Positions 3,720 through 30,758 of a DNA stretch of 30,758 nucleotides are shown piece by piece. The translations under genes and the position numbers were made by a program. Source of the stretch: a virus; the IMG/VR virus record IMGVR_UViG_3300032177_000051, positions 1 through 30,758 of that record; one strand, given 5' to 3'. Each line of letters begins with the position of its first letter. The first letter of the stretch is position 1. The notes under the pieces are model-generated. The model ran no database searches, was not told where the DNA came from, and was given only the letters and a program-made list of their open reading frames with translations.

Positions 3720-4559
3720 TTAACTAAATACTTCGTTATAATAACGTGCTTTGTTACTTTCCATTTGTACCACTTGATCAAATTGATCATACTTCAAAGA
3801 AGATCTAATTCGTTTCAGCAATTCGGGCCTTGTAATTTTTCCACCAGCATCCCGAATGTGCTTACAGAAGTAGTATGTGAAAGCCCCATTATAAGCCCCT
3901 TTAATGTAGGCATCAGCAGAGGTTTGAGAAGATTTGCACCCACCCCAAAGAACATGGTTCATATTAACAATTAATCGTTCACTGTTCGATGGGTCATATG
4001 TTTTTACACAATCAAACATTTTATTTACAAATCCTGGGTCTTCACCATCTGCCCTTGAAGAAATATCAATTGGGGGTGGGCAATAACGATAGCTTCTTGG
4101 ATGTTCTTCCATAATTAATGAATTTCGTGTACCAGTACCAGAATGGCAACAATCAAGGAGTATTTCCAATTCAACTCCTTGAGGGAGTTGCTTTATAATA
4201 GTTGCAAGATCATCATCCAGAATATAACTTTTTTCCCAATCCATATCCCAAGGGCAAATCAACTCATCCTGACCATCGGATAGTTCATCCCCATGACGAT
4301 CCCTAATTTGTGAACCATGACCGGAGAAATGAAAGATAATCTTATCACCAGAAACAGCAGATACAACCAGATTACCAAGACGATCCAGAATTGCAGCTTT
4401 GCTTGCTCTGCTATCAGCAAGCATCCTGATATTAGCATTTTCAAAACCAAAGAATGTTTTAAGAATATCTCTCACATTGGTAATGTCGTTAATACACCCA
4501 TTTAATCCGTTAATTGATTTGTATTGATTAATTCCAGCCAATAATGCTCTCTTTGCCAT
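3720..4559 (-). CDS. Type I metacaspase-like cysteine peptidase (caspase fold, C14)
   Basis: This 279-residue protein has the full p20-type signature of prokaryotic and lower-eukaryote metacaspases. It begins with KRALLAGINQY and a GCINDITN segment. The catalytic His is H81 in FHFSGHGSQ and the catalytic Cys is C138 in LLDCCHSG. Between them is DELSDGQDELICPWD (91-105), and after them GGCKSSQTSADA (206-217), the usual S1-pocket region. Metacaspases cut after Arg or Lys and are often Ca2+-dependent. The protein has no signal peptide and no attached effector or sensor domain, so it should act in the cytoplasm on an unknown protein. Start ATG at 4559 follows an AGGAGG site. Expression as a self-contained early phage protein suggests host takeover or defence/counter-defence, which is inference. 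Confidence 0.9.
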   Translation of the reverse strand: MAKRALLAGINQYKSINGLNGCINDITNVRDILKTFFGFENANIRMLADSRASKAAILDRLGNLVVSAVSGDKIIFHFSGHGSQIRDRHGDELSDGQDELICPWDMDWEKSYILDDDLATIIKQLPQGVELEILLDCCHSGTGTRNSLIMEEHPRSYRYCPPPIDISSRADGEDPGFVNKMFDCVKTYDPSNSERLIVNMNHVLWGGCKSSQTSADAYIKGAYNGAFTYYFCKHIRDAGGKITRPELLKRIRSSLKYDQFDQVVQMESNKARYYNEVFS

Positions 4560-4568
4560 GACTTCCTC

Positions 4569-4886
4569 CTAATAAGATATTTTTCTGAGTTTATCAAATT
4601 TGTCTTCATCTATTTCCCTTTTAAAACTAATTTTGTCACTTTCCCCATCCCGATTTACTATGATATTATATAAAGGAGTTACATTTGTCTCTGGACATGG
4701 TTCAAATTCATTACTATAACCAATATACTCAATTGATCTGTTATAATAATGTGATCTTGTTTCTACAGTAATTACTTTTGCCATAATCTTTAAAACTATA
4801 TAGGGTTCATCCTCCAAGAACCTTTGGTCTATTTCAAATTTACCAATTTTGTTTTCTCTAACTGGATTTGGCATAATTACCGGCAT
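4569..4886 (-). CDS. Hypothetical phage protein
   Basis: A 105-residue, strand-rich charged protein with no motif I recognise. The ATG at 4886 is chosen because GAGAGG lies 6 nt upstream. This makes it overlap the end of the sugar kinase gene by 29 nt; a second ATG at 4874 is possible. It lies 9 nt upstream of the metacaspase gene, so the kinase, this protein and the metacaspase are probably translated from one message. A partner role with the protease is possible but untested. Confidence 0.6.
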   Translation of the reverse strand: MPVIMPNPVRENKIGKFEIDQRFLEDEPYIVLKIMAKVITVETRSHYYNRSIEYIGYSNEFEPCPETNVTPLYNIIVNRDGESDKISFKREIDEDKFDKLRKISY

Positions 4887-5823
4887 AGCTGGCCTCTCTT
4901 ATAATTTCTTTCATGAAAACCGGATCAACAGCAGTAGTACCCATTTGTGAAACCACGTTCCCTGCTGCCCTATTCGCAAGAATAACAGAATCTATAAAAG
5001 AAAAGCCCATTGACTTAGTTGCAGCAAGAGCAGCAATTACGGTATCCCCTGCACCCGATACATCATAGACTGTTTGAGCTTCGGTAGGTACATGGAAATT
5101 ACCTTCTTTGCTATAAACATGAATTCCATTTTCTCCTTCTGTTCCCACAATCTTATTTATTTTTAAGGAATCCATTATATAAGCAGCACTTCCAATTTCT
5201 TCAAACTCTTTCTTATTGGGAGTAATGCAAAAGGAGTAGGAATACATTTCTTTGTGCAATGGGTAGGGGTCGATATATACATTGGTAGAAAAGAATGAGG
5301 GGTTATGGCGCATGGCACTCATGAATTGCTGACTGATCATTCCTTTTCCATAATCAGAAATAATAATAGCATCAATATTCCAAGTATTATGGGACAAGCC
5401 TTCAAAAGCATTTGCAAATAGATCAACTTGAAGCCCATATATACTTTCAACTTCTTCTGTATCTATTCTTACAATTTGTTGGGAACGTGCTACTATTCTT
5501 TCCTTGGTAATAGTGGATTTCATGGGCTGTTGAATTATATAGTTTGAATTAACAGGACTTAAATCAAGAATCATCCCTTTTACAAATTCTCCATTTGCAT
5601 CATCTCCAATAATTCCAAACAAATGAGCATTTATCCCCATATTACAAAGATTAGCAAAAGTATTAGCAGCACCACCTAAATAATATTTCTTTTCTTTAGA
5701 GTGAAATACAGGGACCGGAGCTTCAGGAGAAATTCTATGAGCATCCCCATAGTTATAAATATCCAGCATTATATCGCCAATAACCAGAATGTGAACATCT
5801 TTGGGGTTTAACAGAGATAGCAT
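4858..5823 (-). CDS. PfkB-family sugar kinase, RfaE domain I/HldA type (heptose 7-phosphate kinase-like)
   Basis: A 321-residue ribokinase-fold kinase. The N-terminus (VHILVIGDIMLDIYNYGDAHRISPEAPVPV) and YYLGGAANTFANLCNMG (47-63) match the RfaE1/HldE kinase domain closely. Further matches are the DPYPLH segment at 185-190, TPNKKEFEEIG (201-211) and the PfkB anion-hole motif DVSGAGDTV (254-262), with D260 the expected base. The known reaction of this clade is phosphorylation of D-glycero-D-manno-heptose 7-phosphate at C1, on the route to ADP-heptose for LPS core. The nucleotidyltransferase half of HldE is absent, so this is an HldA-like stand-alone kinase. The substrate could be another sugar phosphate. 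It lies directly upstream of the metacaspase block. Confidence 0.8.
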   Translation of the reverse strand: MLSLLNPKDVHILVIGDIMLDIYNYGDAHRISPEAPVPVFHSKEKKYYLGGAANTFANLCNMGINAHLFGIIGDDANGEFVKGMILDLSPVNSNYIIQQPMKSTITKERIVARSQQIVRIDTEEVESIYGLQVDLFANAFEGLSHNTWNIDAIIISDYGKGMISQQFMSAMRHNPSFFSTNVYIDPYPLHKEMYSYSFCITPNKKEFEEIGSAAYIMDSLKINKIVGTEGENGIHVYSKEGNFHVPTEAQTVYDVSGAGDTVIAALAATKSMGFSFIDSVILANRAAGNVVSQMGTTAVDPVFMKEIIREASYAGNYAKSS

Positions 5824-10543: not shown

Positions 10544-10888
10544 CTAAACGTAATAGACGCTTCCATCCGTAGGAGGGACCGGGGCAATAAAGTCCAGGTC
10601 GATGTTAGCAAGCCCCTGAGTAAGCAGCACAGAAGCATTACCAACCTCATCAAAGGAAGCAACACCAAGATCATAGAAACCATCCAGAGCAGCAATCTCA
10701 GGGACGGTTTCAAGCTGAATCTTGATATACCCATCAGCAGCATCAGCCGCAGGTTTCCCAAGATCCAGTACAATAGTGGCATTGTCCTTGGTAATAGGAA
10801 CTTCTGCCTCAAAGGGTTTCATGTAAAGTTTATAGCCAACAACATCCTCACTCTCAGACGGTTTGAATTTAAGAACTGCACTTGCCAT
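10544..10888 (-). CDS. Fibronectin-III-like protein without signal peptide
   Basis: A 114-residue protein starting ASAVLKFKPSESEDVVGYKLYMKP, the strand A/B/C pattern of an fn3 domain (W/F...P....V.GYKLY). It continues with GFYDLGVASFDEVGNAS, which matches the strand F/G YxVxAxDxxGNxS pattern. The end is PVPPTDGSVYYV. No signal peptide is present, and the AAAGGAGATTTTAAA-ATG start is strong. The codon use is more C/G-ending than in its neighbours (long runs of GCA, GAT, CTG codons), suggesting high expression or different ancestry. It may decorate a virion protein or bind a surface. Confidence 0.65.
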   Translation of the reverse strand: MASAVLKFKPSESEDVVGYKLYMKPFEAEVPITKDNATIVLDLGKPAADAADGYIKIQLETVPEIAALDGFYDLGVASFDEVGNASVLLTQGLANIDLDFIAPVPPTDGSVYYV

Positions 10889-10925
10889 TTTAAAATCTCC
10901 TTTTTAAAGTTAATTAATTAAAACT

Positions 10926-10938
10926 ATCTGCCGCAGAT
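10926..10938. terminator. Weak short hairpin in gap between two fn3-like genes
   Basis: ATCTG and CAGAT pair around CCG. On the minus strand the stem is followed by AGTTTTAATT and on the plus strand by TTTATTTT. It sits in the 95-nt gap between 10888 and 10984. Stem length is only 5 bp, so this is a low-confidence terminator. Confidence 0.25.
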
Positions 10939-10983
10939 TTTATTTTAATTATCCCCTGCATCCCCCCTTTCTAACTCCACTAT

Positions 10984-11439
10984 TTATGAAGTAGGTGGAG
11001 CTACATGCCCATAAATAACCCATGCTCCTGGGACATATTCTGTTTGACCAATAGGAATTATTTTACAAAAATCGCTTTCTAATGAATTTGTCCATTCTGT
11101 ATAGGTGTTATCAAGAAGCTTAAATCTGATATAGAATGAGTATAAGCCAGTTCGTGGTAATTTGAAAGTCTTTTGTGTGCCAATGCTGGTATTAATTCTA
11201 TATTTTTTTTGTTCTCCAATATTCCAAAGGTAAAATTCTGCTAATAGAGCATCAGGGTTTTCCCAAGCAATCGTTAATGGATCACTTGTATAGCATTGAT
11301 AAATAGTTACTTGTGGGGATTGCACTACCCCTGCTTGTACATGGCTTAATACAAAAAACAAAGCTGCAATTAAAAGTAGAAAAGCAAATAGAAGAACAGA
11401 AATATGCATCCTCATATTACTATGGCAGTATGCACTCAT
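10984..11439 (-). CDS. Exported fn3-like protein
   Basis: The protein has a strong hydrophobic N-terminal segment (HISVLLFAFLLLIAALFFVLSHVQA), a signal peptide or anchor. The following domain has ITIAWENPDA-like and FYSFYIRFKLL-like strands typical of fn3 or Ig folds, with Cys residues in IYQCYTS and SDFCKII that could pair in the periplasm. Three starts are possible: GTG 11451, ATG 11439 (GAGG 6 nt upstream, chosen, 150 residues or so) and ATG 11415 just after the cupin stop. It pairs with the non-exported fn3-like gene downstream. Function unknown. Confidence 0.6.
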   Translation of the reverse strand: MSAYCHSNMRMHISVLLFAFLLLIAALFFVLSHVQAGVVQSPQVTIYQCYTSDPLTIAWENPDALLAEFYLWNIGEQKKYRINTSIGTQKTFKLPRTGLYSFYIRFKLLDNTYTEWTNSLESDFCKIIPIGQTEYVPGAWVIYGHVAPPTS

Positions 11440-27179: not shown

Positions 27180-27656
27180 ATGTTCCCTCAATTAGAAAAA
27201 GCACTTGTGGATTTGTTCAAAGGAAGCACCACATACAAAAATGCTTCTGGTGCTACTACTGTGGACCCCAGGATATATGCTTGGTTTCCAGCAGGGGATG
27301 TAGTCTTTGTTCCTGGTGTTAAAGATGTTGCTACTATTTACCGATTTTCAATTACAGGAAGACCTGGAAGATGGTCCTACCCAAGTCAGTTGGGAGACAT
27401 GCAGTTGTTTCTTAGAGTTTCATCCATTAACCAATTAAAACTCGGAACAGTAACCGAAATCTTAGTTGGTGAGAATTCATTTTTGGATCAAGCTTCAATT
27501 ACAACTGAAAATCTTTCAGTGAAGAAGATCTCTACTTTAACAGTTAATGACGGTTTGAATGAGGGTGCGCCTACTCAGCCCATTCATGTAAGGAACTTTT
27601 CTTTCCGCTTCTCAAATGTGTTCATTCGGGAGCCTGTTGAAGAAGATGATGAATGA
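27180..27656 (+). CDS. Tail terminator candidate
   Basis: A 158-residue protein between the gp10-like protein and the tail tube candidate, the usual slot of the tail terminator. It begins with a helix (FPQLEKALVDLFKGSTTY), followed by strands (IYRFSITGRPGRWSYP, GDMQLFLRVSSIN) and a late beta pair (VRNFSFRFSNVFIREP), consistent with the alpha/beta fold of terminators. No family motif is certain. Its stop overlaps the start of the zinc-ribbon gene. Confidence 0.55.
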   Translation: MFPQLEKALVDLFKGSTTYKNASGATTVDPRIYAWFPAGDVVFVPGVKDVATIYRFSITGRPGRWSYPSQLGDMQLFLRVSSINQLKLGTVTEILVGENSFLDQASITTENLSVKKISTLTVNDGLNEGAPTQPIHVRNFSFRFSNVFIREPVEEDDE

Positions 27657-27909
27657 GAAGAAAAACTTTAATTACTCTATGGTTCGTGTGGTTTGCCAAG
27701 GAAAAATTAAATCCTGTGCGTCTTGCAAAGAACAGGTTAATAATTCAACGGTTATGTATGATGGTTATTGCCCTAAATGCAGTAGACCTCTTTGTAAAAA
27801 TGAGGGGGATCTGTGTGGTCAAGTAGTCGGTTATTATGATCGTAGGTATCGGCAGCAAGATAAAGTTCACATTACCTGTAGATTTTGCAGGACTATAACA
27901 TCCATTTAA
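27646..27909 (+). CDS. Zinc-ribbon protein inside the tail module
   Basis: An 87-residue protein with CASC, CPKCSRPLC and CRFC motifs plus two more cysteines, a cluster that can hold two zinc ions. ATGs at 27646, 27649 and 27679 are possible starts; 27646 overlaps the tail-terminator stop. CxxC...CPKCxxPLC spacing resembles the small Com-type or rubredoxin-like fingers of phages, including Mu Com, a translational regulator. A zinc-ribbon gene between tail terminator and tail tube is unusual, and it could be regulatory rather than structural. Confidence 0.65.
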   Translation: MMNEKKNFNYSMVRVVCQGKIKSCASCKEQVNNSTVMYDGYCPKCSRPLCKNEGDLCGQVVGYYDRRYRQQDKVHITCRFCRTITSI

Positions 27910-27921
27910 GGAGGATTTATT

Positions 27922-28434
27922 ATGACTGTTTATGCAACTTCTTTTTCTTCTGACAACATCAGCATTGGCCCCTGCTTCGTTTATTTTGAAGGGGTCCATG
28001 TGGGACACACCTTCGGGGGTGTTCAGGTTTCTATTACTCAAAATACTTATCAGTTGAAATCAGATCAGTACGGGGAAACTGCTGTTCGTGTTCTTGATGC
28101 TGGTCTGGTAGTTGAAGTCACGGTTAATATGACAGAAGCAACCTTTGCTAATTTGAAGATTCTTTTTGCTTCTGCTGAAGACAAAACTACCTACCTGACT
28201 TTTGGTAAGCCGGTGGGTCAGCCCATTAATACGGGTGAGCTTGTCCTTGAGCCTACGGATGGATCTGAAGTGTGGCAGTTCTACAATGCCGCGCCTAACG
28301 TGGGTGGTGCTGTTGAAATTTCCTTTACTACTGATAACCAGAGAGTTTATGCTTGTAAGTTCGTTGCTCTCATTGATGACTCTAGGATCAGTGGCGACCA
28401 ACTATTTAGAATCGGAGGCTATTCTTCACCGTAA
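27922..28434 (+). CDS. Major tail (tube) protein candidate
   Basis: A 170-residue beta-rich protein with AAGGAGG 7 nt upstream. The run FEGVHVGHTFGGVQVSITQN, followed by YQLKSDQYGETAVRVLDAGL and VVEVTVNMTEATFANLK, has the strand order of siphophage tail tube proteins, with the typical D..G..P...V..G....V...L.E.T..... pattern. Codon use is highly biased like the capsid gene, as expected for an abundant protein. A long hairpin follows the stop. Confidence 0.75.
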   Translation: MTVYATSFSSDNISIGPCFVYFEGVHVGHTFGGVQVSITQNTYQLKSDQYGETAVRVLDAGLVVEVTVNMTEATFANLKILFASAEDKTTYLTFGKPVGQPINTGELVLEPTDGSEVWQFYNAAPNVGGAVEISFTTDNQRVYACKFVALIDDSRISGDQLFRIGGYSSP

Positions 28435-28541: not shown

Positions 28542-29534
28542 ATGGCACGAATATTCATAGATGGGTTTGAAAGCGGTGGTTTAAATTGGTGGACTATTTT
28601 AGAAGCGACTGTGGATAGTTCCCCACCAGCAGGTATGTCTGGATCATATTATCTTAATGTTCGTGACAAAAACTGGACAGCATATACAACTCTTAATTCA
28701 AGTAAAGCAGAATTATATTTTGCTTTTAAATATATGTTAAGAACTGCTGATACTCCATCTGGAATAATTTCATTTTATGATTCTGCTGGAACTGTAATTG
28801 GTGGATTATATAGAGAATCGGCAACTGGACTTCCTACATTCAGGTTAGGTGGTGGAGGGGCAGCAATCCAAGCAACAGGGACAACTGTAATTAATACTTT
28901 TACTGTATATTTAATTGAAATACATTATAAACCACTTAATTCTGGAGGAATTCTTCAATTAAAAGTCAACGGTGCAGCAATGGAAATAAATTTTTCTGGT
29001 GATTCAACTGCTGGACTTGAAAATATAATTAAATTTGGATGGTTTCATACTATAGTAAGTACTGCTTGTTGTATAGATGATTTTGTCGTGGATGATGCCA
29101 ACTGGATCGGAAACACCAAGATCCAGGCAATCGTCCCAACGGGTGCGGGGGCAACCACAGGATGGACCCCATCAACCGGAAGCAATTGGGATACATTAAA
29201 TGAAAAACCAGCGGTTGATACCGATTATATAAAAACAAGTTCCGGCCAAATCGACACCTATGCAATGGGAAATCTTACTGGTTCTATTGCTTTAATCAAA
29301 TCCGTAGCCGTTCAAACTCGGAATTGGCGTGAAGGAAACGGAGCATACGACCGCGCTCAACATATCGTGCGCCCTGCATCGACCGATAGATTGGCGGCAT
29401 CAAAGACTACCGTGTTTCCCCCTTCCGCAATATCATTTCAATCAATATGGGAATTAAACCCTGAAGATTCAGCCGCATGGGAAGAAGCAGACGTAAACGG
29501 CATGGAAGCCGGAATAAAGGCGGTGACGGCATGA
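28542..29534 (+). CDS. LamG-like tail appendage protein, paralog 1
   Basis: A 330-residue protein starting MARIFIDGFESG, the signature opening of a family of phage appendage proteins. Residues 1-185 are a LamG/concanavalin-like beta sandwich (LYFAFKYMLRTA, LIEIHYKPLNSGGILQLKVNG, CIDDFVVDDANWIG). Residues about 190-330 are a conserved C-terminal domain: GAGATTGWTPSTGSNWDTL, the DTDYI motif, IDTYAMGNL and SIWELNPEDSAAWEEADVNGMEAGIK. This second domain recurs in tail proteins of many phages. It probably binds glycans on the host surface or decorates the tail. Its stop overlaps the next gene by 4 nt. Confidence 0.75.
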   Translation: MARIFIDGFESGGLNWWTILEATVDSSPPAGMSGSYYLNVRDKNWTAYTTLNSSKAELYFAFKYMLRTADTPSGIISFYDSAGTVIGGLYRESATGLPTFRLGGGGAAIQATGTTVINTFTVYLIEIHYKPLNSGGILQLKVNGAAMEINFSGDSTAGLENIIKFGWFHTIVSTACCIDDFVVDDANWIGNTKIQAIVPTGAGATTGWTPSTGSNWDTLNEKPAVDTDYIKTSSGQIDTYAMGNLTGSIALIKSVAVQTRNWREGNGAYDRAQHIVRPASTDRLAASKTTVFPPSAISFQSIWELNPEDSAAWEEADVNGMEAGIKAVTA

Positions 29535-30514
29535 GCAGAATATTTATGGATGGGTTTGAGAGTGGGGACACAGGGTTATGGAATACTGTTTCAGGAGCAT
29601 CGGTTAATACGCTTGCTGGAAAAGATGGGAATTATTGTGTATCTATACCAAGCACATATGCTTATATGATAAAACAAATTTCATCTACAAGTGAATTATA
29701 TGTTTCTCTTAAATATTATTGCGGAGACTTTACTGGAAAAGCAATAATAACTTTCTTTGAAGGAGCAATAGTGCATTGTTGTTTGATGCATATCAATGGA
29801 CTTTTATATGCTTATTTATATGATGTTCCTTTTGGAAATTCATCTATTCCCAAAATTATTGTAAGCACTTGGTGCCAAATAGAGATTTATGTAAAAATTG
29901 CAAATTCTGATGGACGATTTACTGTAAAGGTAAATGGAATCGCTTGTATTGATTATACAGGAGATACTCAAAATGGTGGAACAGGAGTTATTGATTCATT
30001 TAAAGTTGGGTATCAAGCGCATAGTGCATTAAATGGTTATGCTTTTTGTTATATGGACAATATTATAGTTGACAATGCCAACTGGATCGGATCGTCTTCG
30101 ATCCAGGGCCTTGCCGTAACAGGTGCGGGAAACTCCGCACAATTCGATCCATCGGCTGGAAGCAATTATCAGTGTGTCGATGAGATCCCGCCGTCTGATG
30201 CAGACTACATAAGCACCAACACCCCAAACGAAATCGACACTTATGCCTGTGGCAATCTGACCGGGACGATCAATTCAGTCAAAGCCGTCCAGGTCCAGGC
30301 CCGCTGCATGCAAGAAGGGTCTCCCGCAGTCCCCAAGATTCAACTGGTCACTCGCCCAACGTCTACAGATCGCGTGAGCGCAAGTAAATCCGTTCAGACA
30401 TTTACCCCAGGAGCAGTTTCAAATATATGGGAACTCAATCCAGATGACTCCGCAGCATGGGAATCGGCAGATGTGAATGGAATGGAAATCGGTGTCAAAG
30501 CAGTAGCCTCATAA
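29531..30514 (+). CDS. LamG-like tail appendage protein, paralog 2
   Basis: A 327-residue paralog of the gene just upstream. The ATG at 29531 overlaps the previous TGA (ATGA); a longer in-frame start lies inside the first paralog and is rejected. It has the same MSRIFMDGFESGD opening, a diverged LamG-like region and a closely similar C-terminal domain (SAQFDPSAGSNYQCVDEIPP, DADYI, EIDTYACGNLTG, NIWELNPDDSAAWESADVNG). The C-terminal half (about 30070-30500) is visibly richer in G+C than the N-terminal half. Role as for paralog 1. Confidence 0.75.
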   Translation: MSRIFMDGFESGDTGLWNTVSGASVNTLAGKDGNYCVSIPSTYAYMIKQISSTSELYVSLKYYCGDFTGKAIITFFEGAIVHCCLMHINGLLYAYLYDVPFGNSSIPKIIVSTWCQIEIYVKIANSDGRFTVKVNGIACIDYTGDTQNGGTGVIDSFKVGYQAHSALNGYAFCYMDNIIVDNANWIGSSSIQGLAVTGAGNSAQFDPSAGSNYQCVDEIPPSDADYISTNTPNEIDTYACGNLTGTINSVKAVQVQARCMQEGSPAVPKIQLVTRPTSTDRVSASKSVQTFTPGAVSNIWELNPDDSAAWESADVNGMEIGVKAVAS

Positions 30515-30526
30515 GGAGAATTTAAA

Positions 30527-30758
30527 ATGGCACGAATATTTATGGATGGATTTGAGTTGGGTGATACTTCTTTGTGGAATACTTTAGACAATGCCTACGC
30601 CGCATCTTCAAGCTTCCCTGCCGGATTTTCTGGAACATACTACTTAAATTGTATTGGGGCTTGGTCAGCTGAAAAAATATTTTCTACAACATATTCAGAT
30701 TTATATTTTGCATTTAAAATTTATAAACCTAGTACATATAGTTATGAACAAATACTAA
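30527..30758 (+). CDS. LamG-like tail appendage protein, paralog 3 (cut by window edge)
   Basis: AAGGAG lies 7 nt before an ATG at 30527 that opens MARIFMDGFELGDTSLWNTL, nearly the same opening as the two genes before. The frame stays open to the last base, giving 77 residues of the LamG-like part (TYSDLYFAFKIYKP). It is the third tandem copy; the rest lies outside the window. Confidence 0.75.
   Translation, partial: MARIFMDGFELGDTSLWNTLDNAYAASSSFPAGFSGTYYLNCIGAWSAEKIFSTTYSDLYFAFKIYKPSTYSYEQIL

Follow-up and report, generated by a model that had tools for sequence, protein, structure and literature searches.

Lactococcal siphophages of the 936 group carry on their virions accessory sugar-binding modules that add host binding, and two of these carbohydrate-binding modules have been shown to bind host cells (PMC6669499). 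There the modules are parts of the neck passage structure, of the major tail protein and of the evolved Dit (PMC6669499), whereas in the locus considered here the proposed adhesins are encoded by separate genes in a row. A second point of comparison is the Achromobacter siphophage AchV4, which, like this locus, has three tandem copies of one type of gene (AchV4_0025, AchV4_0026 and AchV4_0027), though they are distant from ours in sequence and are placed further downstream, towards the end of the tail module. Proteins of phrog_2448 and phrog_6368, known from Caulobacter phiCbK and from Brevundimonas, Sphingomonas and Achromobacter phages, belong over nearly their whole length to the same two-domain family as the proteins described below; both groups are annotated in PHROGs as 'unknown function', and the family is widespread and unnamed. 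In annotated phages its genes mostly follow the tape measure or tail-tip genes. In the window, i.e., the whole 30,758-nucleotide stretch of the virus record IMGVR_UViG_3300032177_000051 that was analysed, they stand instead between the tube and chaperone genes.

The part of the window upstream of the row is an HK97-type head and neck module, with terminase, portal, protease, capsid, adaptor, head closure and neck genes. The upstream border of the row is a gene at 27922..28434 (+) for a 170-residue protein; from its sequence pattern and the gene order we infer that it is the tail tube, or major tail, protein, as it has PHROG matches to Ig-domain virion proteins, a position after the neck genes and relatives that are 75–94% identical. 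Just 5′ of it, at 27616-27909 (+), is a gene for a 97-residue, zinc-ribbon-like protein with CxxC pairs, which is kept in relatives at 43–75% identity and has no family match above cut-off. Directly 3′ of the tube gene comes adhesin-like copy 1 (slot 1; 28542..29534, +; 330 residues), whose predicted N-domain, residues 1-186, is encoded by 28542..29099 (+) and whose predicted C-domain, of slot-1 type, by 29100..29534 (+). Copy 2 (slot 2; 29531..30514, +; 327 residues) follows, with an N-domain at 29531..30074 (+) and a slot-2 type C-domain at 30075..30514 (+), the latter delimited by a DNA match to the closest relative, IMGVR_UViG_3300032177_000069 (hereafter L002), which itself begins inside slot 1. 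The first 77 residues of copy 3 (slot 3; 30527..30758, +) are open at the window end, cut short because this virus record of 30,758 bases is a fragment. The stop of copy 1 and the start of copy 2 overlap as ATGA, and all three copies overlap or nearly touch. An earlier note, made from the letters of this DNA, had described tandem paralogs after the tail tube, each beginning M(A/S)RIF(I/M)DGFE.G and better conserved in the C-terminal part, and so they proved to be: two complete copies and the start of a third all have this beginning, copies 1 and 2 are 40% identical end to end (E = 3e-68, far beyond chance), and by halves the identity is 32% for the N-half and 52% for the C-half. Elsewhere the window has some other cargo. 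A 279-residue protein encoded at 3720-4559 (-) has a clear caspase-like Peptidase_C14 domain (E 1e-27), unusual for a phage, in which the motifs FSGHGS and LLDCCHSG suggest that the His/Cys pair is intact; at 4858-5823 (-) lies a gene for a sugar kinase of the PfkB family (E 2.1e-32).

The window proteins P0001 and P0002 match the phrog_6368 profile over most of their length (E 3.8e-18 and 1.1e-19, respectively), and P0002 also matches phrog_2448 (E 1.2e-16). A family alignment built by iterated profile searches has 61 members, 51–53 of which match the profiles of these two PHROGs. Across 60 loci (E <= 1e-10) the family is present in 1–5 copies, 41 loci having one, 13 two, four three, one four and one five, with directly adjacent copies in 15, counts which are rough because of near-duplicate loci (phiCbK is included twice), limited flanks and partial copies. 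The locus with five (L024, 9605-16996) has three members whose C-domains form a deep separate clade. The hosts of family-carrying phages include Caulobacter, Brevundimonas, Sphingomonas, Achromobacter, Mesorhizobium, Pseudomonas and Pseudanabaena. In phiCbK a single small ORF separates the member from an F5/8C tail fibre, putative tail fibre genes adjoin or lie near those of AchV4 and Cp1R7A-A1, and the Sphingomonas phage Lucius has a member that is itself annotated as a putative tail fibre. No close DNA relative of the window was present in the phage collection, and a search of genome contigs with P0002 found no prophage relatives.

What might the two halves be? An AlphaFold2 model of copy 1 (pLDDT 91.1, pTM 0.89) has two beta-sandwich domains. 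Residues 1-195 of the model match ConA-like structures with Z scores of 14–18 to many chains, the best being Cip1 (Z 18.4, 176 residues aligned, 2.6 A) and TtX122B (Z 18.3), followed by the BT_1020 sialidase and a glucuronan lyase (Z 17.6) and by trans-sialidase lectin domains (17.2 and below); the top matches align 176–182 residues. That the N-domain has the concanavalin A-like lectin/glucanase fold, a two-sheet jelly-roll, is supported by this predicted structure, in keeping with the LamG-like, lectin-type character ascribed to it earlier. Cip1 and the glucuronan lyase, both of Trichoderma reesei, have this fold in common with the N-domain at approximately 12–20% identity; they are fungal secreted proteins, and no shared role is implied. 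Sequence comparison reaches less far. Pfam gave no match, Laminin_G_3 (LamG) included, for window proteins P0001, P0002 and P0003, and Laminin_G_3 matches five of the 61 aligned members (best E 1.4e-4); a PDB sequence search with one cassette protein returned nothing, and one with the family profile returned weak local matches and no member with a solved structure. The C-domain of copy 1, modelled alone, has a pLDDT of 95.4. Its structure matches are marginal and largely to carbohydrate-binding modules and other beta-sandwiches, the best being the AlyQ CBM32 (Z 8.0), with a Foldseek E of 0.07 at best, so that it is called here a weakly CBM-like beta-sandwich.

The structural neighbours of the N-domain include, besides the glucuronan lyase, a PL14 alginate lyase, Pfam Polysacc_lyase matches five of the 61 members (best E 9.7e-06), and the Pam4 homolog is annotated as a polysaccharide lyase. 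Could the cassette proteins then be lyase-type depolymerases that cut capsule or exopolysaccharide? The fold, however, is common to many non-catalytic lectins, and by column conservation only, the measure used, there is no broadly conserved His or Gln in the N-domain as a PL20/PL14-like enzyme would lead one to look for, while Tyr and Arg columns reach at best 24–43 of 61; the sole broadly conserved Arg (residue 32 column, 43 of 61) is Met in copy 1. We consider depolymerase activity quite improbable. Conservation in the N-domain falls mostly on G, F, W, E and D, with D179 and D180 among the conserved positions, and a putative calcium site like that of other ConA-like proteins may be present.

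Are the proteins on the virion, as the note had supposed? The homologs AchV4_0025 and AchV4_0026 (E 4.9e-29 and 4.4e-32 to the family) are in the LC-MS/MS virion table of AchV4, with 22 peptides and 75% coverage for the first and 14 peptides and 35.5% coverage for the second, and were singled out by the authors as resembling no characterised phage structural protein (PMC7996906). Through them virion membership is supported. Counting against an adhesin reading, AchV4_0027 is not listed in that table (PMC7996906), and the phiCbK member is not among the eight proteins detected in phiCbK virions in a shallow survey (PMC3556154). A different reading would have the products be non-structural, displayed on or secreted from the infected cell and, for example, masking receptors. 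It draws on the virion evidence all coming from homologs in other phages; against it are the place of the genes within a structural operon, the sequences, which by eye show neither a signal peptide nor a membrane segment, and the AchV4 homologs in virions, and we regard it as very improbable, the least credible of the readings weighed here.

The two halves of these proteins have had different histories. In a tree of C-domains the grouping is by slot position and not by genome, with a slot-2 clade of the window and L002 (support 100/98) and a slot-1 clade of the window, L060 and L002 (support 100/100), L060 being another close relative, and across these two relatives C-domains of the same slot have 78–90% amino acid identity. 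For slot 2, the C-domain is 90% identical to that of L002 (dS 0.57, dN 0.063) and lies in a 90.5% identical DNA match that starts close to where the two domains are predicted to meet, at base 30075 (residue 182), whereas the N-domain is 33% identical (dS 1.51, dN 0.72) and by blastn has no match to L002 beyond the first ~40 bases. The first 77 codons of slot 3 are 99% identical to L002 (dS 0.02). As contrasts in dS, slot-2 N- versus C-domain gives an approximate z of 3.8 and slot-3 N- versus slot-2 C-domain one of 5.2. In slot 1 the window C-domain is 78% identical to L060 and 78–81% to L002 and the N-domain 31–36% to L060, a case resting on amino acids because dS is saturated. Given the slot-wise C-domain tree and these same-slot contrasts, C-domains descend by slot and N-domains get replaced, a replacement that rests on two same-slot comparisons, slot 1 with L060 and slot 2 with L002. 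It is not universal, since in the pair L007 and L040 the N-domains follow slot (43–45% identity in the same slot, 26–28% across slots) and simply evolve faster. For slot 2, an account by fast adaptive change confined to the N-domain was rejected, since synonymous divergence too is far higher in N than in C. A diversity-generating retroelement was set aside, as by inspection the N-domains differ by indels and throughout, and not at targeted adenines.

This exchange bears on whether the proteins could be decoration of the tail tube or head that stabilises or coats the virion and leaves host choice unaffected, the lectin fold serving as a structural brick. Their genes come directly after the tail tube gene and it is the C-domain, not the N-domain, that is best conserved, as such a role would allow. 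Wholesale N-domain exchange between close relatives is, however, unexpected for a structural coat, and in L002 the neighbours of the row are adhesins of F5/8C, LamG and fibre type; decoration is thus unlikely, to our minds. For the adhesin reading these same neighbours are support, Gly_rich_2 and Gp80-fibre proteins being among them.

What lies beyond the window end can be read in L002, where slots 2 and 3 are complete and no fourth copy follows, which answers the question of copy number past base 30758 by way of a relative. After slot 3 come a 774-residue protein that combines Laminin_G_3 and F5/8 type C domains, a 347-residue F5/8 type C protein, proteins of 245 and 257 residues with tail-fibre PHROG matches, the latter above the Gly_rich_2 cut-off, and then a 1229-residue repeat protein and one with a Gp80 fibre domain. 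The repeat protein (L002 7123-10812) has repeats of ~22 residues, a 66-base period, and no family match above threshold. A chaperone-like ORF begins about 10 kb 3′ of slot 3. A second ORF, in the -1 frame and with a sequence conserved in L058, overlaps it, an arrangement that, from the reading frames, would be as expected of a G/GT-type chaperone pair. The chaperone-like ORF is followed by an ORF of 1882 codons for a putative tape measure, a BR0599/phiJL001-type tail protein, an NlpC/P60 peptidase and a J-like tip protein. Tape measure assignment in contig L052 was made solely on the size of the ORF, its place after the chaperone and the character of its sequence, with no family match, and Pfam TMP_2 was not found in 11 family-carrying contigs, which are not close relatives of the window. 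The copies had been thought to occupy the place of tail chaperones and tape measure. They do sit there, but in L002 both genes are displaced and not absent: with the two ~10 kb further 3′, the cassette is inserted before both and replaces neither.

Tail tubes 75–94% identical to that of the window were present in 22 contigs, and content of the site was read only in those with enough sequence after the tube. L060 (tube 85%) has phrog_2448/phrog_6368 family members at the same site, L079 has almost nothing between tube and chaperone, L062, L069 and L076 have 6–8 kb of unrelated genes, and L058 (tube 94%) has one homing-endonuclease-like gene. In L058 and L060 the proteins encoded upstream of the cassette site are 57–94% identical to those of the window. 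The L058 gene, of HNH type (10597-11286), is at an otherwise empty cassette site and might help cargo enter and leave it. One protein of the L062-type site resembles a beta-helix spike by eye, with no database match. The tube/chaperone junction is best read as an accessory site, prone to recombination, where phages of this group can carry adhesin cargo. The description of the cassette as expandable thus held up and can be widened to exchangeable, with 1–5 copies across the 60 loci, N-domains replaced over slot-conserved C-domains and a site that is empty or differently filled in relatives.

The explanation we favour, and hold to be probably correct, is that the cassette encodes virion-borne, glycan-binding accessory adhesins, small proteins of two domains with an exchangeable binder at the N-terminus and a fixed C-domain. 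The ConA-like domain would be the variable, outward-facing, sugar-binding part, and the conserved C-terminal beta-sandwich would probably hold each copy in position, either on the tail or on an adjacent adhesin. The row would occupy the accessory site from the tube gene to the chaperone and tape measure genes, where related phages have other genes or nothing, and recombination would swap the stretch coding for the N-domain, flanked by ~40 conserved bases at the 5′ end and by the slot's conserved C-domain, giving new binding specificities. Sugar binding, C-domain docking, the place on the virion and an effect on host range are what we infer of these proteins. The polarity counts against adhesins, as in many tail fibres the order of conserved and variable parts is opposite to the variable N and fixed C of the cassette. 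A more elaborate form of the adhesin reading, which we put forward tentatively as a possibility and rather doubt, is a slot-coded array in which each slot's C-domain type docks at a distinct tail place or at the next adhesin. The phage would then display several different lectin N-domains together, and recombination could replace any of them while leaving the rest as they were.

For the phrog_2448/phrog_6368 family there is now a predicted fold, published evidence of presence in virions and a likely role. The unit of exchange has come into view, as it is the N-domain that swaps while a position-specific C-domain stays, and the tube/chaperone junction, as an accessory site, may serve for predicting which genes of metagenomic phages are receptor-binding candidates. 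Most likely the cassette is a new instance of a known way in which phages change what they attach to, here with separate genes in a row.
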